The translations under genes and the position numbers were made by a program. From Phycisphaerae bacterium (GTDB lineage: Bacteria > Planctomycetota > Phycisphaerae > UBA1845 > Fen-1342), in assembly GCA_017999985.1 (NCBI GenBank), contig JAGNKU010000004.1, forward strand, positions 248,001-312,000: a stretch of 64,000 nucleotides of DNA, read 5' to 3'. Of the stretch, positions 6,337 to 45,471 are shown in pieces. Under the pieces are notes generated by a model, which did no database searches, had not been told where the DNA came from, and saw nothing but the letters and a program-made list of their open reading frames with translations. Every line of letters begins with the position of its first letter. Position 1 is the stretch's first letter.

Positions 6337-6354
6337 CTGTGAACTATATCACAA
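6337..6354 (-). promoter_or_regulatory. Rex-type operator, site 2
   Basis: CTGTGAACTATATCACAA matches TTGTGA-N6-TCACAA at 11 of 12 fixed positions. Its centre is about 34 bp from that of site 1, roughly three helical turns, which would allow two Rex dimers on one face of the DNA. The AT-rich stretch between the sites probably holds the promoter, but I could not pick unique -35 and -10 boxes. Confidence 0.75.
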
Positions 6355-6538
6355 CATAGCATTAACCGGTCGCAGAGTCAAGTGCCGACGACCTCGCTGG
6401 ACCCAGCCAAGCGCTCGAATCTGGAAAGTACTCGTTGAAACCCTATTAATTACCAATTATTGCGTTATTATAGGACGTGACACTTATGCAGAAACCTCCC
6501 CTCCCGCCGCAGCAAATCGCACACGCCGGCCACCCGGA

Positions 6539-24569: not shown

Positions 24570-25442
24570 TCACGGGCTGTAGACGCCCGGCTTGTTGTAG
24601 TTCTTCTGCAGGAAACCCATCGTGATGCCGTAGCCGTCGGCGTCCGTATAGCGTCCTACCGTCACGTGCTTGTCGGCGACCTCGAGCCACATGTGCCAGG
24701 CCGTGAAACGCTCATAGTTGGGAGGCGGTGAGCCGCCGCGACGGAACCAGCGCATCTCCACATGGCCGTCGAGGAAGCCCAGGTGGCCCTTGCCCTTGTG
24801 ACGGCTGGTGATGCCATCGACGTTGGACCAGCCGCTGTCGCGGACCGACTCCAGATGGTACTTCACGTCCTCTTCGACCACGATCGGGACCATGAGGGTG
24901 TCGGTCGCCGTGCGCCAATTGGCGGGCCGGCAGCGTTCGTTGGGACGCGGATTCTGAATGAGGCAGCGCTTCGGCAGGTCGATGGGCGCGCCCGTGAGGA
25001 TCATCGGCGAAGTGTAGCTGTACCGTTTCACCGGCGTGGAGCCGTCCTGTGGGAAGCGCTCGTGGTCCGGGCAAAAGTACGACTTGGGTTGCTGCCCCAT
25101 GTAGGGGAAGATGGTGCCCTTCTCAGGCGTGCAGTCCATGTTGTACCAGAGCTGCTCGTCGGTGAGTCCCGGCCCCTCCGCGTTCGCCGGCCCCAGCCAG
25201 TCGGCCAAGCGATCGAAGGCGTTGCCGGGGAGCAGGTCCATGTAGTCGTTAGCGTACCGGACGAACGCCATCGAGAGCTGTCGCATGTTGTTGCGGCACA
25301 TCACCTGGCGGGCCCGGCCCTTCGCGGCTCCCAACGTGGGCAGCAGGATGGACATCAGCAGGGCGATGATCGCCACCACCACGAGCAATTCGATGAGGGT
25401 GAACGCCAAGCCCCGTCGCGTTGTTGTGGTTCTCGGCACCAC
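24570..25442 (-). CDS. Prepilin-type pseudopilin-like protein (planctomycete H-X9-DG type)
   Basis: 290 aa from GTG 25442, with AAGGAG 7 bp upstream; GTG 25439 is the alternative. A type IV prepilin N-terminus is clear: a short basic leader, then AFTLIELLVVVAIIALLMSI. The globular part has RHKGKGHLGFLDGHVEM, corresponding to the H-X9-DG segment of a protein family greatly expanded in Planctomycetota. The usual view is secretion- or surface-associated pseudopilins; the individual function is unknown. A TATAAT box lies about 50 bp upstream and strong hairpins flank the gene, so it is probably transcribed alone. Confidence 0.9.
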   Translation of the reverse strand: MVPRTTTTRRGLAFTLIELLVVVAIIALLMSILLPTLGAAKGRARQVMCRNNMRQLSMAFVRYANDYMDLLPGNAFDRLADWLGPANAEGPGLTDEQLWYNMDCTPEKGTIFPYMGQQPKSYFCPDHERFPQDGSTPVKRYSYTSPMILTGAPIDLPKRCLIQNPRPNERCRPANWRTATDTLMVPIVVEEDVKYHLESVRDSGWSNVDGITSRHKGKGHLGFLDGHVEMRWFRRGGSPPPNYERFTAWHMWLEVADKHVTVGRYTDADGYGITMGFLQKNYNKPGVYSP

Positions 25443-25575: not shown

Positions 25576-28500
25576 TTACGGGCAGATGATCGGCAGCGGG
25601 TTCGTGCTGAGCAGCGTCACGAAGGCGTTGATATCGCCAAAGGACGGATACGCAGCGTCACCGTTGATGTCGCCGTTCTCCGGGTTGCAGCCGGCGTACG
25701 TCGTCGTCCAGACGCTGTAGTTGGACAGGTACAGCACGAACGGGTTGATGTCCGCGAAGCTGACCTGGCCGTCGCAGTTCAGGTCACCGACGCAACTGCA
25801 GGGGTTCGGATCGCAGGACACGCCGTCGCCCTTGTAGGTGCCGCCACCCGCCACGCACTCCGCCTGCGGCAAGATGATGCAAACGCCGTCGACGCAACAG
25901 GCGCCGGCACACGGTGTGTGCGTGACCTCGAGCTGGAATTCGCCTGTCGAGCCGCTCCAGCCGGCGATGCGGATGTAGTACGACGCGCCGTTCGTGACGT
26001 TGATGGTAACCACGGACGGGCCGCCGCCCCAGCCGCAGCCGTCGTCGTCACAAGCCAGCTCCGCCCCGCCGCAGCTCGCGTAGACCGCGATCGACGAATC
26101 GAACCAGTTGCCCTGGCACAGGCCGAAGGTTGCGCTGCCGTCGCAGGGCGCCCGCCACTTGTACCACACGTCGTTCCAGTCACCGTCGCCGCCGCCCGCA
26201 CACGACGAGATGTCGGTGCCGGTGGCGAAGTGGTTGCGACCGTAAATGGGGGTGTTGGACAGGACGTAACCGGCGTCGGCGCACTCGTCCTGCGGGCAGG
26301 GGTTGGTCTCGCAGGTAGTGTTGTCGCCCTGGTAGAGGCCGCCCTGCGTAATGCACCAGGCCGGCCCCAGCGTGGGCGACATCTGGCAGACGTCGTCGAG
26401 GCAGCAGACGCCGGGCTGCGCACACGGATTCGGGTCGCAACTCGGGGCACCGTCAAACGTGCCGTTGGCCGCCACGCACTCCGCCGGCGTCATGAGGCTG
26501 CACGTGCCGTCGAGCATGCAGCAGGCACCGGCGACGCAGGGATTCGGGGTGCAGTCGGTCCCACCGCCGAGGAACAAGCCGCCCTGCGCTGCGCACTGGG
26601 CCGGCAGCAGCACCGCGCAGGTCTCGTCCGTGAAGCAGCAGGCGCCGGCGGCATCGATCTCAACGAGGGCGTACTCGCCGCCGAGCCACCAGTGGCCTTC
26701 ATCCGGAAGGTTGTTCCACGTGCCATCGGTAACCATCTGGGCATACAGCTCCGTGTCGAGCAAGTTCGGCTCGCCGCCCGCCCAGTTGCGGTAGCCGGCG
26801 ATCTGGCCGGACGACCAGACCCAGATATTGCTGTTGGGGGCGGTCTCGTAGAGGCCAATCCAGGCCCAACGCACGTCGCCATACACACACGCCAGCACGT
26901 TGTCGCGGACCCACGTGTTCTCGGCGTCGTCATTGATCGTCGCGAGGTGGCCACCCATGGCGACTGCCCGCGCTTCGGCGCCGCTCCAGGAATCCTTCGT
27001 GATCAGGTAGTACTGCGAGCCGTTGGCCGGGTTGACGACCGGGCCGCACACGATGCCCGGCGGGTTCGTGATCGTCATGCGGAAGCCGCCCGTAGCACCG
27101 GCATTGCCGGCGACGCGGACGCGGTAGTGCGTGCCGGCGACGACGTTGAAGTCGACCTGCGAAATCTGCCCGCAGAAGTCGTTGTTGCAGGCCAGCTCGG
27201 CGCCGCCGCAGGCACTGTAGACCGCGATCGTCGTGTCGAACAGGTGATCGCTCAGGTCGCAGCACAGGCTGATGCGCGTGGCGCCGGTCCGGCTGGCAAC
27301 GTAGTCGAACCACACGTCCCTGGTGTCACCCACGCCGCAGCTCGATGTGCTGGTGCCGGTCGCGCCGTCCGAGTCGCCATAGAACTGGCCTTCAGTGAGC
27401 GCGAGCGCGGCCGCGCACTCATCGTTGGCCGGCGGAGTCGGGATTTCAACGACGCCGTAGTGATACATGGCATCGTTGTTCACGTCGTTCCAGCCGCCGC
27501 CGTCCTGCATTTCGCAGTAGTGTTCGGTGCCGCCGGCGTTGTTGGGCTCGCCGCCGTTCCAGTTGGTGAAGAAGGCATGCTGGTTGTTGATCCACTTCCA
27601 GTTGCCCTCCTCAGCCTGATCGGTGAAGCCGATCCAACTGGTGCGGGCCATGCCGCCGACCCGCACGACGTTCTGCAGGACCCAGTTCTGCTCGTCGCCG
27701 TCATTGAGGGTCACGAGGTGCCCGCCCAGTTCGATCGCGCGGGCCTCAGCCTCGGTCCAAGTGTACGGGTTCAGCAGGTAGTACGTATGCCCGTTGGCCG
27801 GGTTGACCACCGGGCCGTACAGGATGTCCGCGGGATTGGTGATGGTCAGGGTGAAGCTGCCGGCCGCCCCGCCGTTGCCGGCGATGCGGAGCAGGTAGGT
27901 CATGCCCGCGACGACGTCGAAGTCCAACTGGGATTGCAGATCGCAGTAGTCGTCGTTGCAGGCGAGCTCGGTACCGTCACAGGCATCAAAGAGGCTGAGT
28001 GTAGTATCGAAGCCGCTGCCGCACAGGCTGGCCCGGGCCGTGCCGGTGCGCGTCGCCTGGTAGAGATACCAGACGTCGTTGTAGTCATCCCAGAAGCCGC
28101 AGGAACTGTAGATGTATCCGGTCGCGCCGCCGCTGGTGCCCTGGAAGATGCCTTCGCTGACGAGCGTCGCGTTCTCGCACTCGTCATTGCCCGGCGCCGC
28201 GCCGCCGCCGACGCTCACGGCGTAGATGCCGAAGCTGTTGGCATTGGACGGGTTGCGGAAGGTGATCGACGACAGGTGCTTGCCCGTAAGGTCGCCCAGC
28301 CCATCGATGTACATCTGGGCCACGGTGAGGACCACCTCGGCCACATTCAGCGTGGACACCGTGGGGGCCGGGTTGTCGACCCAGTACACGGAACTGTACT
28401 GGCCGAGCCGAGAGAGCGACGCAATGCCGCCGTAGGGCCACACGGGACTCGGGATCGAGTTGCTGGCGTACCAGTCGTTCTGCCCGCCGAACCAGTCGGG

Positions 28501-29070
28501 ACCGGTGACGTCCACGGTGATCGAAGGGTTGTCCGTGAAGCCGAGGACGATCTGAAAAGCACCGCCGCCGTTCGTGATGTTATAAAGCACACCAATCTGG
28601 AAATCGGCCGCCAGCGCGATCGCGGGGCTGATCGTGGTGGTCTGCGGCCCGGTGAGATCCGGGTTCGGCAGCCACGTGGGCTGGATGCCGACGTTGTCGC
28701 CGTCGGGGGCCGCGTCGAAAGCCCAGTTGCCGTTATCGACGAGGTTGCGATTGCCCAGCATGACGATGTCGACGACGTGGCCGGTGGGGACCACGGTGTA
28801 GGTCAGGCCGGTGGCGCCGACGAGGGGCTGGGCGTCGATGGCGCCGGACTGGCCGTCGACGCGCAGGGCGCGGTCCGAAAGCGAGCGGAAGCCGTTGGGG
28901 ACGTCGGCGACACCCGGGTCGCCGGGCCAGCCGCCGCTCCATTCGTCCGCATGGATCATGCCGTTGAAGTTGTAATTCAGTGGGATGGGCTGGGCGGAGG
29001 CCGCCACGGTACCTGCGACGAGCAGCGCCGTGGACAGCGCCAGGGCCCATTTTACGTTTCGTCGAAACAT
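25576..29070 (-). CDS. Large secreted protein with two C-type lectin domains, Cys-rich repeats and dockerin-like tail
   Basis: 1164 aa from ATG 29070 (AAGGAG upstream); the signal peptide ends near ASAQP. The N-terminal 270 residues are beta-rich and unassigned. Two copies of a 'DECxxA...CG...D.WY/F.Y.A' beta-domain each precede a C-type lectin-like domain: one has WTEAEARAIELGGHLVTLND, the other WSGAEARAVAMGGHLATIND. Then come four Cys-rich modules of the GACC-x-DGTC / NPC type, with a third beta-domain before the last. The final 71 residues are two dockerin-like repeats (GDLNCDGQVSFADINPFV, DINGDAAYPSFGDIN). It is likely an extracellular carbohydrate- or surface-binding protein. No catalytic motif was seen. 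Confidence 0.85.
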   Translation of the reverse strand: MFRRNVKWALALSTALLVAGTVAASAQPIPLNYNFNGMIHADEWSGGWPGDPGVADVPNGFRSLSDRALRVDGQSGAIDAQPLVGATGLTYTVVPTGHVVDIVMLGNRNLVDNGNWAFDAAPDGDNVGIQPTWLPNPDLTGPQTTTISPAIALAADFQIGVLYNITNGGGAFQIVLGFTDNPSITVDVTGPDWFGGQNDWYASNSIPSPVWPYGGIASLSRLGQYSSVYWVDNPAPTVSTLNVAEVVLTVAQMYIDGLGDLTGKHLSSITFRNPSNANSFGIYAVSVGGGAAPGNDECENATLVSEGIFQGTSGGATGYIYSSCGFWDDYNDVWYLYQATRTGTARASLCGSGFDTTLSLFDACDGTELACNDDYCDLQSQLDFDVVAGMTYLLRIAGNGGAAGSFTLTITNPADILYGPVVNPANGHTYYLLNPYTWTEAEARAIELGGHLVTLNDGDEQNWVLQNVVRVGGMARTSWIGFTDQAEEGNWKWINNQHAFFTNWNGGEPNNAGGTEHYCEMQDGGGWNDVNNDAMYHYGVVEIPTPPANDECAAALALTEGQFYGDSDGATGTSTSSCGVGDTRDVWFDYVASRTGATRISLCCDLSDHLFDTTIAVYSACGGAELACNNDFCGQISQVDFNVVAGTHYRVRVAGNAGATGGFRMTITNPPGIVCGPVVNPANGSQYYLITKDSWSGAEARAVAMGGHLATINDDAENTWVRDNVLACVYGDVRWAWIGLYETAPNSNIWVWSSGQIAGYRNWAGGEPNLLDTELYAQMVTDGTWNNLPDEGHWWLGGEYALVEIDAAGACCFTDETCAVLLPAQCAAQGGLFLGGGTDCTPNPCVAGACCMLDGTCSLMTPAECVAANGTFDGAPSCDPNPCAQPGVCCLDDVCQMSPTLGPAWCITQGGLYQGDNTTCETNPCPQDECADAGYVLSNTPIYGRNHFATGTDISSCAGGGDGDWNDVWYKWRAPCDGSATFGLCQGNWFDSSIAVYASCGGAELACDDDGCGWGGGPSVVTINVTNGASYYIRIAGWSGSTGEFQLEVTHTPCAGACCVDGVCIILPQAECVAGGGTYKGDGVSCDPNPCSCVGDLNCDGQVSFADINPFVLYLSNYSVWTTTYAGCNPENGDINGDAAYPSFGDINAFVTLLSTNPLPIICP

Positions 29071-29634
29071 GCCTGTCTCCTTGCTCCGATGCAACCTGTA
29101 CTAGAGATGAAGCTGCCAGTGGTCCCCCGCGGGGACCGCGTCATTGCCAAGCAGCGGTCGCAGCGCGCGCCGCCGGAGCGCGTGGGACGCAGCCCAGGCG
29201 GTACGCACGGGCGAGCGCGGGGTGGCGGTGCGCAGGTCGGGCCCGCCGGCCGCGGAGGGCCGGCCTACTGGAACCGCGCCCCGGCCACGCAGGCACACGG
29301 CGACAGGCCGTGCAGCGGTGGGCCAAGGTCGGGGTTCCGGTACCCGCATGCTAATCTCTTTCCTTCCGCCGGCGGGCCTCAGGCGCCCGCTTCTGGACGC
29401 GCTACCGCACCATCCGGCCGCCGGGCAGTCGACGTGTCGTAGACCGCGGGCGGAGCAGCCGATGGCTTTTTGCAGTATGCTGCGCGCGGCCGGTCGAGGC
29501 AACCGTGAGGGGCGGGAATGTTACAGCAGTGCAATAAATGCCACACACCTACCGTAATCGGGTGCGGATTTTGCGTGCATCCGCCCGCTCCGCGGCGTTA
29601 GGTGAAGGCTTGCGGGTGCAACGCGGCGGCGGCC
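29071..29634. other. Intergenic region with a repeat of the AraC-locus motif
   Basis: This is 564 bp without a convincing gene. Both strands hold open frames here, but their translations are Arg/Ala/Pro-rich with no recognisable motif. The only clear signal is the 38-bp motif at 29518-29555, also found upstream of the AraC and PTS genes. Part of the stretch probably serves as leader and promoter for the lectin gene. Confidence 0.5.
29518..29555. promoter_or_regulatory. Putative AraC-family binding site, copy 1
   Basis: This 38-bp motif shares 31 of 38 positions with the copy at 30520-30557. Within it TGTTACA and TGCCACA are direct repeats exactly 20 bp apart, with AGTGCAA and AAATG between. 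Direct repeats about two helical turns apart are typical of AraC-family operators. It lies 80 bp beyond the regulator's stop and 448 bp upstream of the lectin/dockerin-like gene, which it may control. Confidence 0.6.
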
Positions 29635-30495
29635 CTACAGGCCCTTCAGGCGGTATTCGGTGGGGGTGACTTTGGTGACCCGGCGGAATACGCGGCAGAA
29701 GTAGGCGACGTCCTGATAGCCGCAGTGGGCGGCGATCTCCTTCAGCGAACTGCCGTATTCCTTCAGCATGAATTTGGCCCGGTCGATGCGGACGAGCGTG
29801 ACGTAATCGTTGAAGCGCAGGCAGCCCTCCCGCCGGAAGATGCGCGAGACGTGGTTGGGGGACAGGCCGAGGCTGTGGGCCACCGACTCGCGGGTGAGCG
29901 CGTTCTGGAAATTCTCCTGCACGTAGAGGCACAATGTCTCATAAGTCCGCGCTGCCTTGCGGGGGTGGGGCGCGGCCGGGCTGCGCAGCGCCTGCAGGCA
30001 CGCGTGCAGGAGGGACTCGGCCAGCAGGCGGTCCAGCGGGGCCGGCCGCGGCTGCGGCGCGATGGTGGTGAGGGCGTTGAGAATGCTCTGGGTCACGCCC
30101 CCGGGCGGGCCGAGCGTGGCCTTCAGCGCGGCCCGCGGCTCGGCGGTGCGCCCGTCGTGGTCGACCAGACTGACGCCGACCTGTTTCTTGCCGAACAGGA
30201 GGGTCAGCACGGACACCGCCGTGGACCAGTCGGGCTTGTTCCAGCAGTTGGCGCCGGCGAAGACGGCCTGGCCGCGCATCAGCGTGATGTGGGCCGGGCC
30301 GGCGTCGCGGGCGATCTCCATCGGGTGTTTGCCGGACAGCGGGACCGACAGGCGCGGAAAGCTCGTGACGTAGGCGAGCGGGGGCGGCGCGACGGTGGCG
30401 CGCGCGAAGTGCACCTGGCGGATGTGCGTGCGGCGCAGGAAGCTCTCCAACTCGTGAACGATCGTACGGCGGGCCGTGGCCGGCGGCATCACCAT
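29635..30495 (-). CDS. AraC-family transcriptional regulator
   Basis: 286 aa. The C-terminal 100 residues carry the two helix-turn-helix motifs of the family: one around RESVAHSLGLSPNHVSRIFRR, the second with SLKEIAAHCGYQDVAYFCRVFRR, ending KVTPTEYRLKG. The N-terminal half is an unassigned sensing domain. It diverges from a fructose-family PTS operon, and the intergenic region contains one of two copies of a 38-bp motif. This suggests it senses the sugar and controls both itself and the PTS/mannosidase genes. Confidence 0.92.
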   Translation of the reverse strand: MVMPPATARRTIVHELESFLRRTHIRQVHFARATVAPPPLAYVTSFPRLSVPLSGKHPMEIARDAGPAHITLMRGQAVFAGANCWNKPDWSTAVSVLTLLFGKKQVGVSLVDHDGRTAEPRAALKATLGPPGGVTQSILNALTTIAPQPRPAPLDRLLAESLLHACLQALRSPAAPHPRKAARTYETLCLYVQENFQNALTRESVAHSLGLSPNHVSRIFRREGCLRFNDYVTLVRIDRAKFMLKEYGSSLKEIAAHCGYQDVAYFCRVFRRVTKVTPTEYRLKGL

Positions 30496-30519
30496 GCGCG
30501 TGCTCCCGGTGGGCAGAGT

Positions 30520-30557
30520 ATGTTACAATAGTGCAAGAAATGTCACACGTCTACTGT
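30520..30557. promoter_or_regulatory. Putative AraC-family binding site, copy 2
   Basis: It matches copy 1 at 31 of 38 positions. TGTTACA and TGTCACA are direct repeats 20 bp apart. It lies between the divergent regulator and PTS IIC genes and ends just before a possible promoter (TTCTTC, 16 bp, CATACT at about 30559-30586), a position suited to activation of the PTS operon. Confidence 0.65.
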
Positions 30558-30624
30558 TTCTTCGTGCTGGAGCGGGTGTCATACTACAAGAGGAGTCCCC
30601 GTCGCCGGGGATCATGGTGCCAGC

Positions 30625-31674
30625 GTGACTGAATCCCTGCAGAAGCTGCGGCAGTACCTGCTCACGGGGGTGTCGTACGTCATCCCCTGCATCGCGTGCG
30701 GCGGCATCCTGATCGCGGCCGCGATCGCCTTTGCGCCGCTGACCCCCGAGGTGGGGCCGCAGCCCGAGAAGGTGCCGATCCTGCAGCTCATGCTCCAGAT
30801 CGGCGTGACGGCGTTCAAGCTGGCGCTGCCGATCCTGGCGGGCTACATCAGCTACGCCATCGCCGGCAAGCCGGGCCTGGTGCCCGGCTTCATCGGCGGC
30901 TATCTGGCGGGCGAAGTCAACGCCGGATTCCTCGGCGCGCTCGTGATCGGGCTGCTCGCCGGCTGGATCGTGAACCTCATCAAGACCGTGCCGGTGCCGA
31001 AGTACATCAAGCCGATCATGCCGATTCTGATCATTCCGATCGTGTCGTCCGGGATCGTCGGGCTGCTGATGCTGAAGGTGATCGGGATTCCGATTGCGAA
31101 CCTGATGGAGCTGCTGGCAGACTGGCTGCGGACGATGAGCACCGGCAATGCGGCGCTGCTCGCGATCATCCTGGGAGGCATGATCGCGTTCGACATGGGT
31201 GGGCCGGTCAACAAAGCGGCGTTCTTCTTCGGGGCGGCGATGATCAAGGAAGGTCAGTACGCGGTGATGGGCGCGTGCGCCGCGGCGATCTGCACCCCGC
31301 CGCTGGGCCTGGGCCTGGCCACGCTGATACGCCGCAAGCTCTGGAGCGACGAGGAGAAGGAGGGCGGCATCGCCGCGCTGGCGATGGGAATGATCGGTAT
31401 CACCGAGGGAGCAATCCCGTTCGCGGCGGCGGATCCGCTGCGCGTGATCCCCTGCATCATGCTGGGCTCGATGGTCGCCGCGGTGATCGCGATGATCGGC
31501 GGCGTGGGCGATCACGCGCCGCACGGCGGGCCGATCGTTCTGCCGGTCGTCGATAATCGCATCGCATACGTCTTCGCCATTGTGGTGGGCACGCTGGTCA
31601 CCGCGCTTGCGATCATCCTGCTGAAGACTGTGACGCAACGGCGTGCTCCTGAGAAGGCCGAGGTGTCCGCATGA
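30625..31674 (+). CDS. PTS fructose-family transporter, membrane subunit IIC
   Basis: 349 aa from GTG 30625. It has about nine hydrophobic segments and the IIC-Fru signature (LAGYISYAIAGKPGLVPG, then FDMGGPVNKAAF and GITEGAIPFAAADP). It forms the sugar channel and receives phosphate through the IIB protein encoded next. The ribosome site is weak; a short hairpin (CCCCGTCGCCGGGG, 30597-30610) lies just upstream. The stop overlaps the IIB start by 4 bp (ATGA). Fructose-family IIC proteins also carry mannose-type sugars and mannosylglycerate, so the substrate is open. Confidence 0.92.
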   Translation: MTESLQKLRQYLLTGVSYVIPCIACGGILIAAAIAFAPLTPEVGPQPEKVPILQLMLQIGVTAFKLALPILAGYISYAIAGKPGLVPGFIGGYLAGEVNAGFLGALVIGLLAGWIVNLIKTVPVPKYIKPIMPILIIPIVSSGIVGLLMLKVIGIPIANLMELLADWLRTMSTGNAALLAIILGGMIAFDMGGPVNKAAFFFGAAMIKEGQYAVMGACAAAICTPPLGLGLATLIRRKLWSDEEKEGGIAALAMGMIGITEGAIPFAAADPLRVIPCIMLGSMVAAVIAMIGGVGDHAPHGGPIVLPVVDNRIAYVFAIVVGTLVTALAIILLKTVTQRRAPEKAEVSA

Positions 31675-31970
31675 AAATCGTTGCCGTAACCGCATGCCCG
31701 ACGGGCATCGCCCACACGTACATGGCTGCCGAGCAACTGGAGAAGACCGCCAAGACGCTGGGCCACCAGATCAAGGTGGAGACGCAGGGCGCGATGGGCA
31801 TCGAGAACGAGCTGTCGGCCAAGGACATCCGCGAGGCGGACATCGCGATCTTCGCCGTCGATATCGACGTGGAGCAGCGCGAGCGCTTCAACGGCAAGCG
31901 GATCGTGCAGGTGCCGGTGCAGGACGCCATCAAGAACCCGAAGGCGGTCCTGGCGAAGACGCTGGGTTGA
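31671..31970 (+). CDS. PTS fructose-family phosphocarrier IIB
   Basis: 99 aa. The active-site loop ACPTGIAHTYMA has the phosphoacceptor Cys9. It is a stand-alone version of the domain usually fused to IIC, starting inside the ATGA overlap with the IIC stop. It passes phosphate from the EIIA domain encoded by the next gene to the incoming sugar. The length and motifs are complete. Confidence 0.93.
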   Translation: MKIVAVTACPTGIAHTYMAAEQLEKTAKTLGHQIKVETQGAMGIENELSAKDIREADIAIFAVDIDVEQRERFNGKRIVQVPVQDAIKNPKAVLAKTLG

Positions 31971-32020: not shown

Positions 32021-34540
32021 ATGGTGCACGAGTACGTATTCGAGTGCCCGCTACCCAACGGGCTGCATGCCCGGCCGGCGAGCCAACTGGCCGACGTGGC
32101 GTCGCGCTTCGTCGCGGAAATCACGCTGACGAACGAGCGCACCGGGACCAGCGCCAACGCCAAGAGCGTGCTGGCGATGGTCGCGACGGACGTGAAGCGC
32201 GGCGACGGGTGTCGCGTGCGCATCGCGGGCGCGGACGCCGAACCGGCGCGCGCGGCGCTGTGCGACTTCGTGACGAACGTCCTCCCGGGCTGCGACGAGC
32301 CGCTGCCGGAGCCGCAGGCCAGCGCCAGCCCGAGCCTGCCACGCGCCCTGCGCCGCGCGGACGTGTCCTGGCTGAGCGGGACCATCGGGTGCGCCGGCCT
32401 CGGCCAGGGTTGCGTCGTGCCGGCCGGTGGGCTGAGCCTGCCGGCCGAACTGGCGGCCGAGCCCGCCGGCGACCGCGCCGCGGAAGTCGAGAAGGTAAAC
32501 GGCGCCATGGCGGCGGTGCGCGCGAACCTGAAGCTGCGCCTGGCCGCGCGCCCGGGCCCCGTCGAAACGTCGATCCTGGAAGCCCACCTGTCGATCGCCG
32601 CCGACGTGGCGTTGGCGGAGAAGATCGCGGAGCTGGTCGCCGCGGGCCGCGCGGCCGGCCCGGCGATCGTGGAGGCCGCGACGTTCTTCGCGGCCCGCCT
32701 GAAATCTGCCGAGAGCGGCTATATCCGCGAGCGCGCCGTCGACGTGGAAGACATCGGTTTGCAGTTACTTGAGCAGGTCTACGGGTCACGCTTCAAGGCC
32801 GCGGGCATCGAGCTCACGCAGCCGGCCGTGGTCGTCGCGGAGAACCTCACGCCGCGACAACTGCTGGCGCTGGACCGGCGGCACTTGCAGGCGCTGGTGC
32901 TCGAACATGGGGGCACGACGTCGCACGCGGTGATCCTGGCGCGCTCGTTCAACATCCCGACGTTGAGCGGCGTGACGGACGCCCGCGCGCAACTGGCGCG
33001 CGGCCGCGAGGCCATCGTTGACGCACACTTGGGGATCGTCATCGTCGAGCCCGCAGCGCCCGTCCGCCGCTACTACGAGCGCAAGCGGCAGCGGCTGGAC
33101 GCCCGCGCGGCGCGGCTCGCGCGGGATACACACGCGCCGGCCGTGACGCGCGACGGCCACCGGCTCGAGGTGGCCGCGAACGTCTCCACGACCGCGGAGT
33201 TCGCGCCGGCGTTTGCGCAGGGCGCCGACGGCATCGGCCTGTTTCGCACGGAGATGCTCTTCCTCGACCGGGACGTCCCGCCGTCCGAGCAGGAGCAGTA
33301 CGCGGCCTATGTCCAGGCGGCGCGCGCGGCCGCGGGCCGGCCGGTCATCATTCGCACGATCGACATCGGCGGCGACAAGCCGGTGCCCTACCTGAACCTG
33401 CCGCCCGAGGCCAACCCGTTCCTCGGCTATCGCGGCGTGCGGATCTACAGCGCGCACCGCGCGGTGTTCAACGCGCAGTTGCGCGCGATCCTGCGCGCCG
33501 CCGCGAGCGGCCAGGTGTGGCTGATGGTGCCGATGATCAGCTCACTCGACGAGGTTCGCTGGGTGCGGAGCGCCATCCGGGAGGTGGCAGCCGAGCTGCG
33601 GGCCGCGGGCCAGGCCTGCAACGCGGAACTGCCGGTCGGGATCATGGTCGAAGTCCCGTCGGCGGCGTTCATCATGGCGCAACTGGCGCCGGAGGTCGAC
33701 TTTTTCAGCATCGGCACGAACGACCTGGCGCAGTACTTCCTCGCGGTCGACCGCAACAGCGACCAGGTGGGCGCCCTCTGCAGCGCCCGCCATCCGGGGT
33801 TCCTGCGGCTGCTGGCGCAGATTGTCACGGAGGCGCACCGCCACGGCCGCTGGGTCGGAATGTGCGGCGAGATGACGCGCGCCCCGCAGAACCTGCCGCT
33901 GCTGATCGGGCTGGGGCTGGATGAGATCAGCACCGCGGCCCCGGGCATTCCCGCCCTCAAGGCCGCGATCGCCCGTTTTTCCGCCGCCGAGTGCCGGACG
34001 CTGCTGGAGCAGGCGCTGGCTTGCGGAACGGTCACGGAGGTGGAGGACGCGGTCGCGGCCTTTCGGGCGCGCGCGGGGGCCCAGACGCTGCTCGACGACG
34101 ACCTGATCGTGGTGGACTCGGAGAGCGCCAGCAAGGAAGAGGCCCTCGAGGAGCTGGTGGACGCGTTCCACGCCGCCGGCCGGACCGACCAGCCGCAGCT
34201 CGTCGAGGAGGCGATCTGGCTGCGTGAAGCCGTGTACACGACCGGGCTGGGCCACGGGTTCGCGGTACCGCACTGCAAAACGGACGCGATCACGGCGAAC
34301 TCGATCGGCGTGCTGCGGTTGAAGAAGCCGATCGCGTGGGACGCGGTTGACGATCAGCCGGTGCAGTGCGTGATTCTGCTGGTGGTGCGGGCGGCGGAAG
34401 ATGGCAGCGCGCACATGAAGATCTTCTCGCGACTGGCGCGCAAGCTGATGCACGACGAATTTCGCGCGCGCCTGCTAGCGGCGCCGGAGCGCGCGGCGAT
34501 GCGCCGCTATCTCGCAGCCGAACTGGGTTTGACCACCTGA
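32021..34540 (+). CDS. Fused PTS phosphotransfer protein HPr-EI-EIIA(Fru)
   Basis: 839 aa from ATG 32021, where the HPr homology begins; the frame is open further upstream but only over IIC/IIB sequence. HPr covers about 1-90, with active His16 (NGLHARPA) and a Ser49 segment (NAKSVLAM) like the regulatory serine site of HPr. Enzyme I covers about 110-680, with active His302 (GGTTSHAV), RTEMLFL, and Cys615 in WVGMCGEM. EIIA covers about 690-839, with His751 (FAVPHCK). One polypeptide therefore carries phosphate from PEP to IIB. The usual multiphosphoryl proteins are ordered EIIA-HPr-EI, so this order is uncommon. The gene follows IIB by 50 bp in an operon. Confidence 0.93.
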   Translation: MVHEYVFECPLPNGLHARPASQLADVASRFVAEITLTNERTGTSANAKSVLAMVATDVKRGDGCRVRIAGADAEPARAALCDFVTNVLPGCDEPLPEPQASASPSLPRALRRADVSWLSGTIGCAGLGQGCVVPAGGLSLPAELAAEPAGDRAAEVEKVNGAMAAVRANLKLRLAARPGPVETSILEAHLSIAADVALAEKIAELVAAGRAAGPAIVEAATFFAARLKSAESGYIRERAVDVEDIGLQLLEQVYGSRFKAAGIELTQPAVVVAENLTPRQLLALDRRHLQALVLEHGGTTSHAVILARSFNIPTLSGVTDARAQLARGREAIVDAHLGIVIVEPAAPVRRYYERKRQRLDARAARLARDTHAPAVTRDGHRLEVAANVSTTAEFAPAFAQGADGIGLFRTEMLFLDRDVPPSEQEQYAAYVQAARAAAGRPVIIRTIDIGGDKPVPYLNLPPEANPFLGYRGVRIYSAHRAVFNAQLRAILRAAASGQVWLMVPMISSLDEVRWVRSAIREVAAELRAAGQACNAELPVGIMVEVPSAAFIMAQLAPEVDFFSIGTNDLAQYFLAVDRNSDQVGALCSARHPGFLRLLAQIVTEAHRHGRWVGMCGEMTRAPQNLPLLIGLGLDEISTAAPGIPALKAAIARFSAAECRTLLEQALACGTVTEVEDAVAAFRARAGAQTLLDDDLIVVDSESASKEEALEELVDAFHAAGRTDQPQLVEEAIWLREAVYTTGLGHGFAVPHCKTDAITANSIGVLRLKKPIAWDAVDDQPVQCVILLVVRAAEDGSAHMKIFSRLARKLMHDEFRARLLAAPERAAMRRYLAAELGLTT

Positions 34541-34577: not shown

Positions 34578-37500
34578 ATGATGTGCCGAGCGGGCACGAG
34601 CCTGACCTGGATTGTGGCGATACTGGGGGCTTCGCAGTGCGCGGGGGACACGCTCGTGACACCGGCGCCCGATCTCACTCAACAGCCCACCCTGTACGTG
34701 GTCGGCTATTCGCACCTGGACACGCAGTGGCTGTGGTGCTACCCGCAGGTGATCCGGGAGATGATCCCGAAGACCATGCACGAGGGCTTCGCGGCGATCG
34801 AGAAATACCCGCACTTCATCCTCAACTTCAGCGGAGCCAACCGCTACCGGATGATGAAGGAGTACTTCCCCGCGGACTACGAACGGGTGAAGCAATACAT
34901 CGCCGCAGGGCGCTGGTTCCCCTGCGGCTCCTCGATGGAGGAGTGCGACGTCAACGCTACCGGGGCGGAGTCCATCATCCGCCAGGTGCTCTACGGCAAC
35001 CAGTACTTCCGCCGGGAGTTCGGCCAGGCCAGCGCCGAGTTCATGCTGCCGGACTGCTTCGGTTTCCCGGCGTCGCTGCCGAGCCTGCTGGGCCATTGTG
35101 GCCTGAAGGGCTTCTCGACGCAGAAGCTCACGTGGGGTTCCGCGGTTGGCATCCCCTTCAACGTGGGTGTCTGGGAGGGGCTGGACGGGACGAAGCTGCC
35201 CGCGGCGCTGAATGCGCTGAGCTACAACGGCGACATCGAGACTGACCTCAGCGCCGATCCGAAGTGGATCAAGCGGATCGACGAAAACGGCAAACGTTCG
35301 GGCCTGTACGTGGACTATCACTACTACGGCGTGGGCGACGTGGGCGGCGCCCCGCGCCAGGTCGCGCTCGAAGGGCTGGAGAAGTCCGTCGCCGGCACCG
35401 GCCCCGTGCGGGTCGTCTCGGCCACGGCCGACCGGATGTTCCTCGATCTGCCCGCCGACCGCCTGGACAAGCTGCCGCACTACCAGGGCGACCTGCTGCT
35501 GACCGAGCACTCCGCCGGCTCGATCACATCGCAGGCCTACATGAAGCGCTGGAACCACAAGAACGAGTTGCTGGCCGACGCGGCCGAGCGCGCGGCCGTG
35601 CTCGCGGAATGGCTCGGCGGACCGGCGTACCCGCGTCAGCGCCTGCTCGACGCGTGGACGCTCGTGATGGGCGGGCAGTTCCACGACATCCTGCCGGGCA
35701 CGTCGCTGCCGAAAGCGTATGAGTACTCGTGGAATGACGAGCTGCTGGCGCTCAACCAGTTTGCCAGCGTGCTCGACAGCTCCGTGGGCGCGATTGCCGC
35801 CGGTTTGGATACGCAGGCCAAGGGCGCGGCGCTGGTGGTCTACAACCCGCTGTCCATCGACCGCGAGGACGTGGTCGAGGCGCGCGTGATGCTCGACGGC
35901 GCGCCGCCCAAGGCCGTGCAGGTGCTCGGCCCCGACGGCAAGACGGTGCCGGCGCAGATCCTGAGCGCGGAGCCCGGCGCTCTGCGCATCTTGTTCCTGG
36001 CGCGCGTGCCGGCGGTGGGTTTCGCCGTGTATGACGTGCAACCGACCGAAGCCGAGCCAGCGGCGGATGCGGCGCTGCGGGTCGCCGACACCGGGCTGGA
36101 AAACGCGCGCTACCGTGTGACGCTCGATGCCAATGGTGACGTGGCCGGCATCTTCGACAAGCGTGCCAGCCGCGAGCTGCTCAGCGGGCCGGCCCGGCTG
36201 GCGTTTCTGTACGACAAGCCCGGGGCGTGGCCGGCCTGGAACATGGACTGGGTGGACCTGCGCCGGCCGCCGGTCGCGCACGTGGACGGCCCGGCCCAGA
36301 TACGGGTCGTCGAACGCGGCCCGGTGCGGGTCGCGCTCGAAATCGTCCGCGACAGTCAGAACTCGCATTTCGTGCAGACGATTCGGCTGGCCGCCGGCGA
36401 CGCGGGCGAGCGCATCGAGTTTGCCAGCACGATCGACTGGCAGAGCCGCGAGATGTGCCTGAAGGCGGTCTTTCCGCTGGCGGTCGCGAATCCGCAGGCG
36501 ACGTACAACTGGGAAGTCGGCACGTTGCAGCGCGGCAACAACGACCCGCGCAAGTACGAAGTGCCGACGCACGGCTGGTTCGATCTGACGGGGGCGACTA
36601 GCGACTACGGCGTCACGGTCCTTTCAGACTGCAAGTTCGGCTCGGACAAGCCGGACGACCAGACACTGCGCCTGACGCTGCTGCGCACGCCGGGCACGCG
36701 CGGCGACTTTTTGGACCAAGCCACGCAGGACTGGGGCCGGCACGAGATCCTGTACGGTCTGGCGGGCCACCAGGGCGACTGGCGCACCGCGCAGACCGAC
36801 TGGCAGGCCCTGCGGCTCAGCCAGCCGCCGCTCGTGTTTCAGACGGCAGCGCACCCCGGTCCGCTCGGCCGGCAGTTCGCGCTGCTGAAGGTGAATCACC
36901 CGCGCGTGCGCGTGCTGGCCGTGAAGAAGGCGGAGGAGGGCGACGAAGTCATCGTACGGCTCGTGGAGCTGAACGGGCAGACGGCGAAGGACGTGCGTGT
37001 GTCGCTGCCGGCGCCAATCGTGGCGGCCCGCGAGGTGGACGGTCAGGAGCGGCCGGTGGGTACGGCCAACGTCGTAAACGGGGAGCTCGTCACGGATTTC
37101 ACCGGCTATCGCCTGCGCAGTTTCGCGCTCAAGCTGGGGCCGGCGCCGACGCAGTTGCCGGCGACGAAGGCGCAGCCGCTGGCGCTGACGTTTGATCGCT
37201 GCGTGACCAGCCGCGATGGCACGGCAACCATGGGTGGTTTCGACGGGGAGGGCCGCTGCTATCCGGCGGAGATGGTCCCGACCGAGATCGCGTATCGCGG
37301 CCTTCCGTTCCGTTTCGGGCCGGCTGACGGCCAGCCCAACGCCATTACGGCTGGAGGACAGAGCCTCGCGCTGCCGGCGGGCGCGTTCAACCGCGTGTAT
37401 GTGCTCGCGGCCGCCAGCGGCGAACGTGAAGCCGAGTTCGCCGTTGACGGGCAGCCGGCCCGGCGAACCATACAAGACTGGGGCGGCTACATTGGGCAGT

Positions 37501-38891
37501 GGGATAACCGGATCTGGGAGGGCGTGCCTGCAGACCCGTCGTACGACTGGCCCTACAAACTGCTGGGCGTGCAGCCGGCCTACGTGCGGCCCGCGCCGGT
37601 GGCGTGGTTCTGCTCGCACCGGCACGCGGCCGACGGCCAGAATGAGCCGTACGCCTACAGCTACGTGTTCGCCTACGCCTTTGATCTGCCGGCCGGCGCG
37701 AAGCGCCTCACGCTGCCGAACGATCCGAAGATCGCGGTGTTCGCGGCGACGGCGGCTTTCGACGGGGGTGCGGGCACGTATCCGGCACAGCCGCTGCTGG
37801 ATGAGCTGAAGCGCGATGCCCTGCCGCTGCCGCGGATCGCGCCCCACGGTGGCAAGTTCACGGACAACACGCTCATCACGCTGGAGCGTCCGCTGTTTGG
37901 CGGCGCGGGTGTGCTACGCTACACGCTGGACGGCAGCGAGCCGACGCCAAACTCGCCGGAGTACATGGCACCTGTACGGTTGTACACTGACACCGTTGTG
38001 AAGGCACGCTTCTTCGAGAACCAGGGCCCGGGCGGCACCGTGGCCGAGGCACACTTCCAGGTTCAGGACACGACGGCCCCGCAGATTCAGGATGTCGTGG
38101 CGTTCACCTGGTCCCCGGAGGTCAGCCTGCTGTTCTCCGAGGAGCTGGAGCGCTCGTCGGCAGAGAACACGGAGAATTACGAGGTCTCCGGCGGTCTGAA
38201 GTTGCAGTCCGTCACGTTGGCGCCGGACGGCCGGCGAGTCAACCTGCTGCTCTCGGCGGCGCCGACTGACACGGATTGCGGCCTGACCGTCAGCGGTGTG
38301 CGCGATCTGGCGCCCGCCGGCAACGCGGTGGCAAAGGTGAGCCGCAAGATCGCGGGGCTGCGCCCCGTGGTGCACGCGGCGCAGGAGGTGCTCGATGGGG
38401 CTGGCGACGGCGTCGAATTGCCGCTCGGTGAGGGCGCGCCCACGCGTGCAACGGACCCCTGGACGATCAACGCCTGGCTGTGGATCGACGAGCAGCCCGG
38501 CGACTTCACGATCATCGCGGGCTTCGGCAGCGGGCATGGGCCGCTCGGCACGGAGCGCTACCTGACGAAGTTCCCGCACGGCTTCCATTTCTGGGGTTCC
38601 AACGTGGACGTGCCCGCCGGCGTGAAGCTGGAAACCGGCCGGTGGCAAATGCTGACGGCCACCTTTGACGGCGGCGTGCTGAAGCTCTTCCAGGACGGGC
38701 GCGAGCTGGTGTCCACCGAGATCACCCTGGCCGACGCCGAGCCGGTCGCGAAACTCGGCCCGCCGCCGGCGTGGTCGTATGGCCATCGCGTTGCCGGCAA
38801 GGTCGCGGGCTTCACGTTGTGGAGTCGAGCGCTACCACCGGCGAGCGTCGCCGCACTGCATAGACTGGGGCCGGAGGCGACGATTCCGTAG
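34578..38891 (+). CDS. Exported GH38 alpha-mannosidase with accessory C-terminal domains
   Basis: 1437 aa, with AAGGAG just upstream; ATG 34578 or 34581. The N-terminal hydrophobic stretch to about Ala22 looks like a signal peptide. The GH38 catalytic domain has the zinc motif SHLDTQW (His46, Asp48), the probable nucleophile Asp159 in MLPDCFGFP, and a later zinc histidine in GGQFHDILPG. The middle/C-terminal GH38 beta domains follow. After about residue 1090 come a chitobiase C-terminal-like domain (RYTLDGSEPTPNSPEY), an Ig-like domain and a LamG/concanavalin-type domain. It should remove alpha-mannose from glycans outside the cytoplasm. It lies 37 bp after the PTS fusion gene, which suggests the PTS takes up the product. 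Confidence 0.92.
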   Translation: MMCRAGTSLTWIVAILGASQCAGDTLVTPAPDLTQQPTLYVVGYSHLDTQWLWCYPQVIREMIPKTMHEGFAAIEKYPHFILNFSGANRYRMMKEYFPADYERVKQYIAAGRWFPCGSSMEECDVNATGAESIIRQVLYGNQYFRREFGQASAEFMLPDCFGFPASLPSLLGHCGLKGFSTQKLTWGSAVGIPFNVGVWEGLDGTKLPAALNALSYNGDIETDLSADPKWIKRIDENGKRSGLYVDYHYYGVGDVGGAPRQVALEGLEKSVAGTGPVRVVSATADRMFLDLPADRLDKLPHYQGDLLLTEHSAGSITSQAYMKRWNHKNELLADAAERAAVLAEWLGGPAYPRQRLLDAWTLVMGGQFHDILPGTSLPKAYEYSWNDELLALNQFASVLDSSVGAIAAGLDTQAKGAALVVYNPLSIDREDVVEARVMLDGAPPKAVQVLGPDGKTVPAQILSAEPGALRILFLARVPAVGFAVYDVQPTEAEPAADAALRVADTGLENARYRVTLDANGDVAGIFDKRASRELLSGPARLAFLYDKPGAWPAWNMDWVDLRRPPVAHVDGPAQIRVVERGPVRVALEIVRDSQNSHFVQTIRLAAGDAGERIEFASTIDWQSREMCLKAVFPLAVANPQATYNWEVGTLQRGNNDPRKYEVPTHGWFDLTGATSDYGVTVLSDCKFGSDKPDDQTLRLTLLRTPGTRGDFLDQATQDWGRHEILYGLAGHQGDWRTAQTDWQALRLSQPPLVFQTAAHPGPLGRQFALLKVNHPRVRVLAVKKAEEGDEVIVRLVELNGQTAKDVRVSLPAPIVAAREVDGQERPVGTANVVNGELVTDFTGYRLRSFALKLGPAPTQLPATKAQPLALTFDRCVTSRDGTATMGGFDGEGRCYPAEMVPTEIAYRGLPFRFGPADGQPNAITAGGQSLALPAGAFNRVYVLAAASGEREAEFAVDGQPARRTIQDWGGYIGQWDNRIWEGVPADPSYDWPYKLLGVQPAYVRPAPVAWFCSHRHAADGQNEPYAYSYVFAYAFDLPAGAKRLTLPNDPKIAVFAATAAFDGGAGTYPAQPLLDELKRDALPLPRIAPHGGKFTDNTLITLERPLFGGAGVLRYTLDGSEPTPNSPEYMAPVRLYTDTVVKARFFENQGPGGTVAEAHFQVQDTTAPQIQDVVAFTWSPEVSLLFSEELERSSAENTENYEVSGGLKLQSVTLAPDGRRVNLLLSAAPTDTDCGLTVSGVRDLAPAGNAVAKVSRKIAGLRPVVHAAQEVLDGAGDGVELPLGEGAPTRATDPWTINAWLWIDEQPGDFTIIAGFGSGHGPLGTERYLTKFPHGFHFWGSNVDVPAGVKLETGRWQMLTATFDGGVLKLFQDGRELVSTEITLADAEPVAKLGPPPAWSYGHRVAGKVAGFTLWSRALPPASVAALHRLGPEATIP

Positions 38892-39013: not shown

Positions 39014-42000
39014 CTACGGCTCGTCCACCTGCACCCGGATTTCGGTGCCGTTGCAGCGCAACTCCGGAACGTACATGGCGTAACCGATGGTCGGCAGCGC
39101 GTGGAATTCGCCCGGCACCTCGGCGCGCAATTCGTAGCGCAACTCCCATACGCCCTCCAGTAGCTGGTCCAGGAAGAAAGCCACCTTGCGATCGCGCAGC
39201 TCCTGGTGGGTCCAGCGGCTGCGGCCGGTGTGGTCCGTAGCGCCGCGCCGCAGATGCTCCTCGGCAGCGCGCTGCGCGGTTGTCTGCGTGCCGAACTGGC
39301 GCTCGACGATGCCGCTCTTCAATTCCTGCGCGTAGCACGGCTCACCACTGCGCACCTGCACCGCCTCGAAGCCCGCGGGCTTGAGATCCTCGAACACGAG
39401 ATATTCGTAATTGTTCTTCGCTTCGAGCGTGATGACCGACTCCACCCGCTCGCCACTGATGATCTTGTCGCCGTCATTGAGCGGCACGCGCTGGTACACC
39501 AGCCCCTGCAGCAGTGTCGGCTTTTCCGCGAGCCGGTAGTACTGCCGGCGAACGAAGATCTCGTTGCCGGTCGGCTGGAGCGGGCATTCCAGGCTGACAA
39601 AGCGGGCCTCCGCGGCGAAGTACAATGGGCTCGTGCCGCCGGTGCGCCGAATCCGGATTTCGTTGTCGCCATCTCGGATCAGCTTCGGATCGACGACGAA
39701 CCGGCTGGGGGCGGCAAAAACGTCGGCCGGCGTGACCTTCTGCTGCGCAACGGACTGCCCGTTCACGAGCACTTCGTAGGCCACGTCCGGCTTGAGCTCG
39801 CCACTCCGGCGCAGGTAGTCGTTCAGCGCCAAGACCACGATCGCCGTGTCGCGCGTGCTACGCCACTGGGCGCCGCGGCGGTTCTTGATGAGCCAATTGG
39901 TGACCGGCTCGACGAGCTTGTGGTCCGGCTCGATGGCCAGCAGCGCCCGCAGCATGAACGCGGTCGCCTCTTCGCCGCCCTCAGACCAGTGGTAGTAGAC
40001 GCCGTCCGCACCCCAGTGGGCCGTCGCCAGGACGGCGTCGTGTGACTGCTGCACACCTTCCATGATCACGGACGTGTCCGGCCGATCGTCGATCTGCACG
40101 CCGTTTTCGAAGTTCCGCACAAGCAGCCGGGCATCATCCGTCTTCCCGAACGCGTGGGCGCACAGTGCCAGCAAGGCGCGCGTGTAGGCGTTCAGCTTCT
40201 CGCGCTGCTTGAGGATGTTGGCATAGGCGCGCTGCTGGCTCGCCCCCCGCTCAGTCTTTGACAGCGCGTCATAAACAGCCAGCGCGTGGAGCATCCACGC
40301 CTGCATGTCTGGCGCGTTCTCTTCCTCGACGAGCTTTGTTTCCAGGAAGGCAACCGCACGCTTGAGCACGTTGTCCTCGACGGTAATCCCAGCGTCGCGC
40401 GCCAGCGCCAGCCCCCAGACGACGTACGCTGTCATGAAGTGATCACTCGGCGTTGTCGCGTCGCCTTTCCACCAGCTCCAGCCGCCGTCGGCGTGCTGGA
40501 AGTCGTACAGCCGCGCGAGGCACTGATTCACCACCTCGTCGAGCCGCGCGAGCGACGCGCCCCGCGACGGCTCGGCGTTCGGATCGCTCGGCTGGCTGGC
40601 CGGGTGTTCCATGCCGCCGAAGAGGCGGTTGGCCACGATCTCACGCGACAGGCCGAGGTCGCCCAGCGTCTTCGCGGTAATGACCGCCGGCAGGAACCGG
40701 CTCATCGTCTGCTCGGTGCAGCCATAGGGGTAATCGACCAGGTACGGCAGCGCATCCAGCATGGTCACTGCGAGACTGGGTGCAACCTGCACTGTGAGCG
40801 TGGTCGTGTCGGGCTGCCGCTCGGCTGGAATCGCCAACTTCACGGTGACGTCGCCCTCGCGGACCTTGCCGGACTTGGCGACGAGTTGCTCGATGCCATG
40901 GGCGAAGATGGGGAGGCTGCGTTCCATCGCGTCGGCGTGTTTCTCGCCGCGTGCCAGGGCGGTCAATTTCGCGGTGCCGGGCTGCTCGACGCGAATGCGC
41001 CAATCGACGCGCTGCTCGCCATGGGCGGGCACTTCGACCGCGGCGGGCTCGCCGGCAGCAAGTTGTCCATCGCGCAGCCAGCCCTCGAGGCTAAGCCCCT
41101 CGGCCTTCAGTCCCGGCAGCGCCTTCAACGGGGCGTCCGTGTTGTTGTTAAGCACCGCCGAGACGGTCACCGTATCGCCGACGAGGAAGAACCGTGGCGC
41201 TTGAACCCGAACGATGAGCGGTTGGCGCGTACGCGACTTGCCCGTGGCCATGCCGAACTGGCTGCCGGTGGTCGCCGCGCGGGCCGTGGCCTGCCACGCC
41301 GTGACCGAGTCGGGATACTTGACCTTCACGGTGGCGACGCCGTCGGCGTCAGTCTTGACATCCGGCTGCCAGAACGCCGTCGCGCGAAAATCGCTGCGAA
41401 CCTGGATGCTGGCCGCGGGCACGTAATCGATACCGCCATCGCCGTCCTGCTCCTCAGTGGAACTTGGCACTCGCAGCAGCGCGGGCGTCATCGGCTCGCC
41501 CAAGCTCACAAGAGAGAGAGTGCGCTCACTGGCCGCTGGCATCTCGGCGAAGTAGACCCCGCGGCGCGCCCACCCACCCGATCCCTCCCCTTGACCAAAC
41601 ATGCCCGAGCCCGCGCCCCCACCTTCCCCAAACATGCCCCAGTCGCTGGAGATGTCACCCAAGCCCTGGGTAACGTCGAATCCGTACTGAGCTTGCTGGT
41701 TCATTCTCGCCGCCGGCTCGCCGGGCTGGGGTGTTGCGAGCGCGCGCTCGTCCAGCACCTTGCCGTCCGGGCCGTGCACCAGCCGCCGGTAAGCCAACTG
41801 CGCCGCCGTCGCGGCCAGTCGGACCCCGCTGTCACGCTTCTGCCCGAAGAAGAACGGCTGCGGATCGCCGGCGAGGTCCTGCTGGATGTAGAACACGGAC
41901 TCATCCGCGAGACTCAACGCCACCTCGGCCGCCACAGGCTTGCCGTCGCAGTCCTTCGTCCGCACCGTCAGCGTGCCTTCCTGCTGTGGCTCATAGATTT

Positions 42001-45076: not shown

Positions 45077-45471
45077 GGCCACTCCCTTTGTGCCGGACGC
45101 GGTATTGAACCCGGATTTGTCGGCGCTACCACGCAATTGGACGCCGTGCCACCCACCGGGTTCCCGCGCATATATACAAAGCCCTGACCGATCCGATGCA
45201 ACCCGACGACCACCGATCGCGGACCCGATCGGCTATCATCCCACCCACGGCAGCACACGCAAGGTCGTCGTCGGAAGCCGGCCCACGCGACCGGAATACG
45301 GCGTGATTGCCACCCGTGCGGCCGTGAACTGGTCCCGCGGGCCAGAAATCAATTCCCCCGCGGCCGTCACTGTGCTATTCTGATATCGATATGGATTACT
45401 GACATGCCAGAGCCGCCGCGGCGTGCGCAGTGCTGGCAGTACGGCGGCACAATCATCTTTGGAGGTGGATC
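45077..45471. other. Divergent intergenic region between macroglobulin and C25 peptidase genes
   Basis: 395 bp without a gene. It contains a TATATA at 45171-45176 facing the macroglobulin gene and an AT-rich patch around 45376-45392 (TATTCT, then the palindrome ATATCGATAT) facing the peptidase gene. Both are plausible promoter elements, but no complete -35/-10 pair stands out. Confidence 0.35.

Follow-up and report, generated by a model that had tools for sequence, protein, structure and literature searches.

The region analysed here, referred to as the window, is a stretch of 64,000 nucleotides of planctomycete DNA. It contains a gene for an AraC-family regulator lying between a fructose-family phosphotransferase (PTS) operon, which is transcribed divergently from it, and genes for a lectin-like and a pilin-like protein. 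A 38-bp motif occurs on either side of the regulator gene. The features considered in this analysis are as follows.

24570 to 25442, minus strand: pilin-like protein (N_methyl, DUF1559), conserved beside the lectin gene
25576 to 29070, minus strand: surface lectin-like protein (GBD_T9SS_assoc, two C-type lectin domains, dockerin-like C-terminus)
29518 to 29555, plus strand: site 1, predicted ManR-type operator (11.5 bits, rank 2 in the window)
29635 to 30495, minus strand: ManR orthologue, AraC-family regulator of 286 amino acids (assigned by domains, homology and tree)
30517 to 30546, minus strand: putative manR promoter, GTGACA-18-CATACT, inside site 2 (a consensus match only)
30520 to 30557, plus strand: site 2, predicted ManR-type operator (25.0 bits, rank 1 in the window)
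30580 to 30585, plus strand: possible -10 element of the PTS operon (CATACT; weak, found by inspection and missed by the promoter scan)
30625 to 31674, plus strand: PTS EIIC, fructose family (TIGR01427)
31671 to 31970, plus strand: PTS EIIB (PTS_IIB)
32021 to 34540, plus strand: HPr-enzyme I-EIIA fusion (start codon inferred from its domains)
34578 to 38891, plus strand: GH38 alpha-mannosidase (CHB_HEX_C_1 and Laminin_G_3 domains)

The two copies of the motif agree at 31 of 38 positions, exactly as claimed in an earlier reading made from the letters of this DNA (the sequence-only reading). The TGTyACA-like direct repeats that it described are also present, as TGTTACA and TGTCACA spaced 20 bp apart, with TGCCACA as the site 1 variant. 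An internal 9-bp repeat (GTTACA / GTGCAA) is as strong as the 20-bp repeat, each copy matching itself at 8-9 of 18 positions at both offsets. Only 18 of 60 positions match in the 60-bp flanks on either side, which excludes a duplicated segment as the source of the two window copies. With up to three mismatches allowed, a 27-bp core had two matches in the window, and 100 dinucleotide shuffles gave none. We rejected an RNA element as an explanation of the motif because no Rfam covariance model matched the window at its gathering score.

Site 2 lies between the divergent manR gene and the PTS operon, points to the latter and ends 67 bp before the EIIC start. The sequence-only reading was right that this site faces the PTS operon, but the same site is also about 25 bp from the regulator's start codon. 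Site 1, between the 3' end of manR and the lectin gene, is indeed upstream of the latter, as had been proposed, but it runs opposite to that gene and is separated from the lectin ATG by 448 bp, a long distance for direct activation. The two sites have the same orientation and are spaced 1,002 bp apart, or about 95.4 helical turns at 10.5 bp, a figure that speaks neither for nor against a loop between them. A promoter scan found only the putative manR promoter within site 2, and none at site 1.

The regulator carries a C-terminal AraC-type DNA-binding domain with two helix-turn-helix motifs (HTH_18, 2.4e-20; HTH_AraC, 6.6e-17). It reached no specific NCBIfam cut-off, missing those of the AraC and RhaS equivalogs, and its matches in the PDB covered the DNA-binding domain only, none of them being named ManR. 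Along its length it is 38-42% identical to most of about 44 homologues from Vibrionaceae and related bacteria and 49% identical to a homologue in a Phycisphaerae metagenome-assembled genome. We built a maximum-likelihood tree from a near full-length alignment that included the N-terminal domain and took in close Vibrio relatives of Vibrio cholerae ManR, without the V. cholerae protein itself. The window protein, its planctomycete orthologues and the Vibrionaceae proteins form one clade of 27 rows (support 99/98), inside which the Vibrionaceae proteins group together (100/99); the nearest relative of the window protein is that of genome G673 (98/91). The window regulator is thus a member of the ManR clade. 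The other AraC-family proteins of the genome match it only in the DNA-binding domain, and the one that was placed in the tree falls outside the clade. The recognition-helix regions of the planctomycete and Vibrionaceae ManR proteins are nearly alike.

A search of 40 near relatives for orthologues returned DNA-binding-domain matches only. The orthologues came from a class-wide search, with 11 further ManR proteins in the window's class and one more (G076) in another class that was represented by two genomes only. In Vibrio anguillarum (L083) the homologue is divergent from genes for PTS EIIABC and mannose-6-phosphate isomerase, the manR-manP-manA arrangement of V. cholerae. One contig of G673 (C23; L136:6-587, 737-1540) has two adjoining ManR-like genes on opposite strands, of which the one at the contig end is 59% identical to the window protein (residues 94-286) and its neighbour 48-49%. 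Aliagarivorans taiwanensis (L092) has two ManR-like proteins in one locus, on separate branches basal to the Vibrionaceae group, and these branches may help to date the transfer between phyla.

V. cholerae ManR (VC1825) is an activator of manP and of its own gene; mannose-6-phosphate binds to it with a Kd of about 152 nM, and its response to fructose-1-phosphate is weak (PMC9392796). The protein has two sites, BS1 and BS2, which lie upstream of -35 elements and share an essential AATCC core (PMC9392796). We compared the window with Vibrionaceae sites by means of a 44-column weight matrix made from 70 distinct sites at Vibrionaceae ManR loci, with the window excluded; the seed pattern was chosen after the resemblance had been noticed, so that the collection was not fully blind. 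When both strands of the window were scored, the matrix ranked the position of site 2 first (30520, 25.0 bits) and that of site 1 second (29518, 11.5 bits), with the next at -5.6 bits, and 40 simulated windows with the dinucleotide composition of the real one reached at most -1.4 bits. The 22-bp core of the matrix gave 18.5 and 14.0 bits for the window sites, against a mean of about 0 and a maximum of 14.3 in simulated windows.

The consensus reads GTTACAATAATCCAGTTAATG... in Vibrionaceae and GTTACAATAGTnCAATAAATG... in planctomycetes. AGTGC stands for AATCC in all three copies of the motif in the genome, none of which has the literal AATCC core; other planctomycetes (G610, G584 and G741) have sites with AATCC. 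The comparison across phyla therefore indicates that AATCC is not the invariant part of the site. The second half-site in Vibrionaceae echoes the first at 20 bp (TnCAnT at positions 11-16 and 31-36), a repeat that fits an AraC-type dimer on direct half-sites. The manR-proximal site of Vibrionaceae is also reversed relative to manR.

A search of the whole 5.23-Mb genome with the 27-bp core found exactly three copies, and a reversed-pattern control found none. A looser pattern recovered the same three at zero mismatches together with one match at three mismatches, against two matches for its control. Site 3 (G000:C3:251110; L004:9910) lies between a URO-D gene and another alpha-mannosidase gene:

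L004:5598-9719, minus strand: second GH38 alpha-mannosidase, downstream of site 3

The product of this gene is 67% identical over about 1060 amino acids to the GH38 protein that ends the window's PTS operon. Site 3 is reversed relative to the gene and stands 191 bp from a TTG start or about 206 bp from the likely ATG. Its likeness to the window copies is confined to the first 22-26 bp, and its second half-site is weak; for that reason the 44-column matrix misses it (-14.7 bits), whereas the 22-bp core alone finds it at 19.0 bits with the next match at -2.2. Apart from this copy the motif is confined to the manR locus, and its presence ahead of a second GH38 gene is indicative of a regulon. The sequence-only reading was right about the motif and missed both this third site and the identity of the regulator. 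It had also named a dispersed repeat unrelated to AraC genes as the alternative to be feared, and a genome with three copies, the only distant one preceding a gene of the same function, does not fit that description. The pattern of the window was not found in 26 other members of the family.

Comparison with related genomes showed that the element is kept with ManR orthologues in other planctomycete families. In G501 a site lies between manR and an EIIC-EIIB-HPr/EI/EIIA-GH38 operon that is the equivalent of the one in the window. G741 has a site between manR and EIIC, and in G665 the corresponding position is taken by a weaker site; the regulator is likewise divergent from a Fru-family PTS in G501, G665, G741 and G732. 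A strong site precedes the pilin-like and lectin genes in G660 and G655, where a weaker site precedes EIIC. G673 has a site between manR and the lectin and pilin-like genes, G686 has one before a pilin-like gene adjoining manR, and in G076 a site precedes a GH38 gene. A planctomycete matrix gave 23-28 bits to the weaker PTS sites of G660 and G655 and to the sites of G673 and G665, all of which were outside its training set. A degenerate pattern run over 13 ManR genomes made 13 matches, compared with none for the reversed-pattern control. Of the further sites, one precedes the PTS-GH38 operon of G610, a genome in which manR is on a different contig. G741 has two: one, 320 bp ahead of a GH92 alpha-mannosidase gene, is reversed relative to that gene, and the other stands 72 bp ahead of a gene for a Laminin_G/F5_F8 protein, which GH97 follows. 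Others are upstream of a sulfatase gene in G076 and of a pilin-like gene in G584. A site near manR was sought and not found in G625 and G584, and G732 has a weak one only. Both G076 and G741 have sulfatase genes at ManR-type sites or close to them (L161:4635-5987, 6345-7883; L163:9234-10802), hinting at sulfated glycans as substrate.

Taken together, the 38-bp elements are very probably operators of ManR, serving a regulon for the capture and uptake of alpha-mannosides with the PTS operon at site 2 and the second GH38 gene at site 3. Operators of AraC and RhaS consist of two direct half-sites, each with an A-box and a B-box, bound by the two helix-turn-helix motifs of each monomer. The predicted ManR operators share this organization and differ in their 20-bp spacing, their sequence and their presumed effector. 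The earlier suggestion of an AraC-family dimer gains support from this architecture and from the way the element follows ManR across genomes. On this model ManR would sit as a dimer on a direct repeat with a spacing of 20 bp. Its two half-sites would each consist of an A-box (GTTACA in the first, GTCACA or GCCACA in the second) and a B-box (GTGCAA in the first, CTACTG in the second), a pairing that would match the two helix-turn-helix motifs of each monomer. In the mechanism that we propose, secreted GH38 enzymes would free mannose from alpha-mannosides, and the PTS, whose substrate is presumably mannose, would bring it in as mannose-6-phosphate, the likely ligand of ManR. Bound at site 2, ManR would in turn bring RNA polymerase to the EIIC-EIIB-HPr/EI/EIIA-GH38 operon, and at site 3 it would activate the second GH38 alpha-mannosidase. 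It may also repress manR itself from site 2, which is plausible because the site covers the putative manR promoter. At site 1 it would most likely activate the surface cluster of lectin and pilin-like genes, which is probably the target of that site.

The sequence-only reading had suggested that sugar uptake and a surface protein are co-regulated. This idea is strengthened by the presence of sites at both clusters in G660 and G655, by the site between manR and the lectin gene in G673 and by the co-occurrence of the lectin domain with ManR. The lectin N-terminal domain is single-copy in the window's genome; it was found in 5/5 ManR-bearing genomes of the order, which represent three genera (G660, G655 and G686 share one) and hence few independent events, compared with 0/25 ManR-less genomes of the order and 0/2 from the class. 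ManR genomes outside the order are without it. The domain is made up of the first 300 residues of the lectin protein, which are 37% identical to the product of a gene at L062. Pilin-like DUF1559 genes are very common in Planctomycetota, which makes the pilin part of the link weaker. No site was found in the available DNA beside second, paralogous copies of the lectin gene in G673 (C194) and G686 (C525).

The distance and reversal of site 1 would also suit an arrangement in which the elements are ManR operators but site 1 loops with site 2 onto manR or the PTS operon and leaves the lectin gene uncontrolled. AraC loops with araO2, and the shared orientation of sites 1 and 2 at a spacing of 1,002 bp is compatible with a loop. 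However, ManR-type sites accompany the lectin or pilin clusters of three other genomes (G660, G655 and G673), within the order the lectin domain occurs only with ManR, and reversal is likewise seen at site 3 and at the GH92 site of G741, which lie 190-320 bp from their genes. We therefore regard looping without control of the lectin gene as possible but unlikely.

ManR binding is a prediction, and the genome encodes other AraC-family proteins, so that the elements could be operators of another transcription factor by which the neighbouring manR is merely co-regulated. This is improbable, given that a profile from the ManR loci of another phylum picks out the window sites, that the element follows ManR orthologues in many families and that the other AraC proteins resemble ManR only in the DNA-binding domain, the one in the tree lying outside the clade. 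Still less probable is a repeated promoter element. The reverse strand of site 1 (TGGCATTTATTGCA) recalls a sigma-54 promoter (TGGCA..TTGCA on the minus strand), and site 2 contains the sigma-70-like manR promoter, but we rejected sigma-54 since the distance from GG to GC is 8 rather than 10 (N8 against GG-N10-GC) and GG is absent from site 2. The scan found no promoter at site 1, and neither type of promoter would explain the GTTACA..AATG register conserved across phyla. A dispersed repeat or a remnant of segmental or mobile-element duplication, which three near-identical copies and the paralogy of the two GH38 genes (67%) might bring to mind, is already contradicted by the number of copies (only three in 5.23 Mb), their unrelated flanks, the position of the window site before the PTS operon and not directly beside GH38, and conservation in other families and in Vibrionaceae, and its chance of being correct is negligible.

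As predicted ManR operators, the elements can be set against the V. cholerae system. Both systems have an AraC-type regulator, with close Vibrio relatives in the same strongly supported clade, a divergent Fru-family mannose PTS (mannose being the presumed substrate in the window) and the operator core GTTACA..TnCA..AATG. Site 2 is directed at the PTS operon and has manR at its back, an arrangement shared by the site in Vibrionaceae relatives. With AATCC at -61 to -65 and the transcription start 30 bp before the start codon (PMC9392796), the manP geometry of V. cholerae implies about 103 bp, and the distance from the first base of site 2 to the EIIC start is about 104 bp. The window differs in having AGTGC for AATCC and one site between manR and the PTS genes instead of two. 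Its operon includes its own HPr-EI-EIIA fusion and GH38 where V. cholerae has mannose-6-phosphate isomerase, its genome has sites also at the second GH38 gene and the lectin/pilin cluster, and ManR is a putative repressor of its own gene rather than its activator.

The combination of a Fru-family PTS with a GH38 alpha-mannosidase also occurs in the E. coli mannosylglycerate system, mngR-mngAB, whose regulator belongs to the GntR family. The window proteins score far below the equivalog cut-offs (EIIC, 208.7 of 763 bits; GH38, 69.1 of 1138 bits), and the window GH38 is, unlike its E. coli counterpart, large, multi-domain and apparently secreted.

The type of regulator is thus known, and the regulon content and the phylum are new; we found no description of a ManR regulon in Planctomycetota among the open-licence papers searched. 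The predicted operators widen the description of the ManR site from the published AATCC to a bipartite element spanning about 37 bp. They provide, for sugar-responsive transcription in Planctomycetota, a regulon and an operator code that can be tested, and would represent an AraC-family operator surviving between phyla. They also connect surface lectin and pilin-like genes that are otherwise anonymous with the use of mannosides. Our judgement is evenly balanced on the fuller account, in which a PTS with its own HPr and enzyme I, secreted alpha-mannosidases and a dedicated lectin/pilin-like surface cluster are brought together under a mannose-6-phosphate sensor as a regulon for capturing and importing mannan, the operator code having persisted in both Planctomycetota and Vibrionaceae since the regulator passed between phyla.

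Other observations concern the proteins encoded around the sites. A single fusion protein of the window operon combines HPr, enzyme I and EIIA, which makes for a self-contained phosphorelay; the same fusion accompanies EIIC/EIIB in G501, G610, G660, G655 and G732 and is partly seen, at contig ends, in G665 and G741. Just past the GH38 gene of the window, on the opposite strand, is a large bacterial alpha-2-macroglobulin-like gene (39014 to 45136, minus strand; MG2, A2M, TED, bMG10). The lectin protein and the second GH38 have dockerin-like C-termini in common, with 72% identity over 61 amino acids, and this shared segment is perhaps a sorting or anchoring signal.
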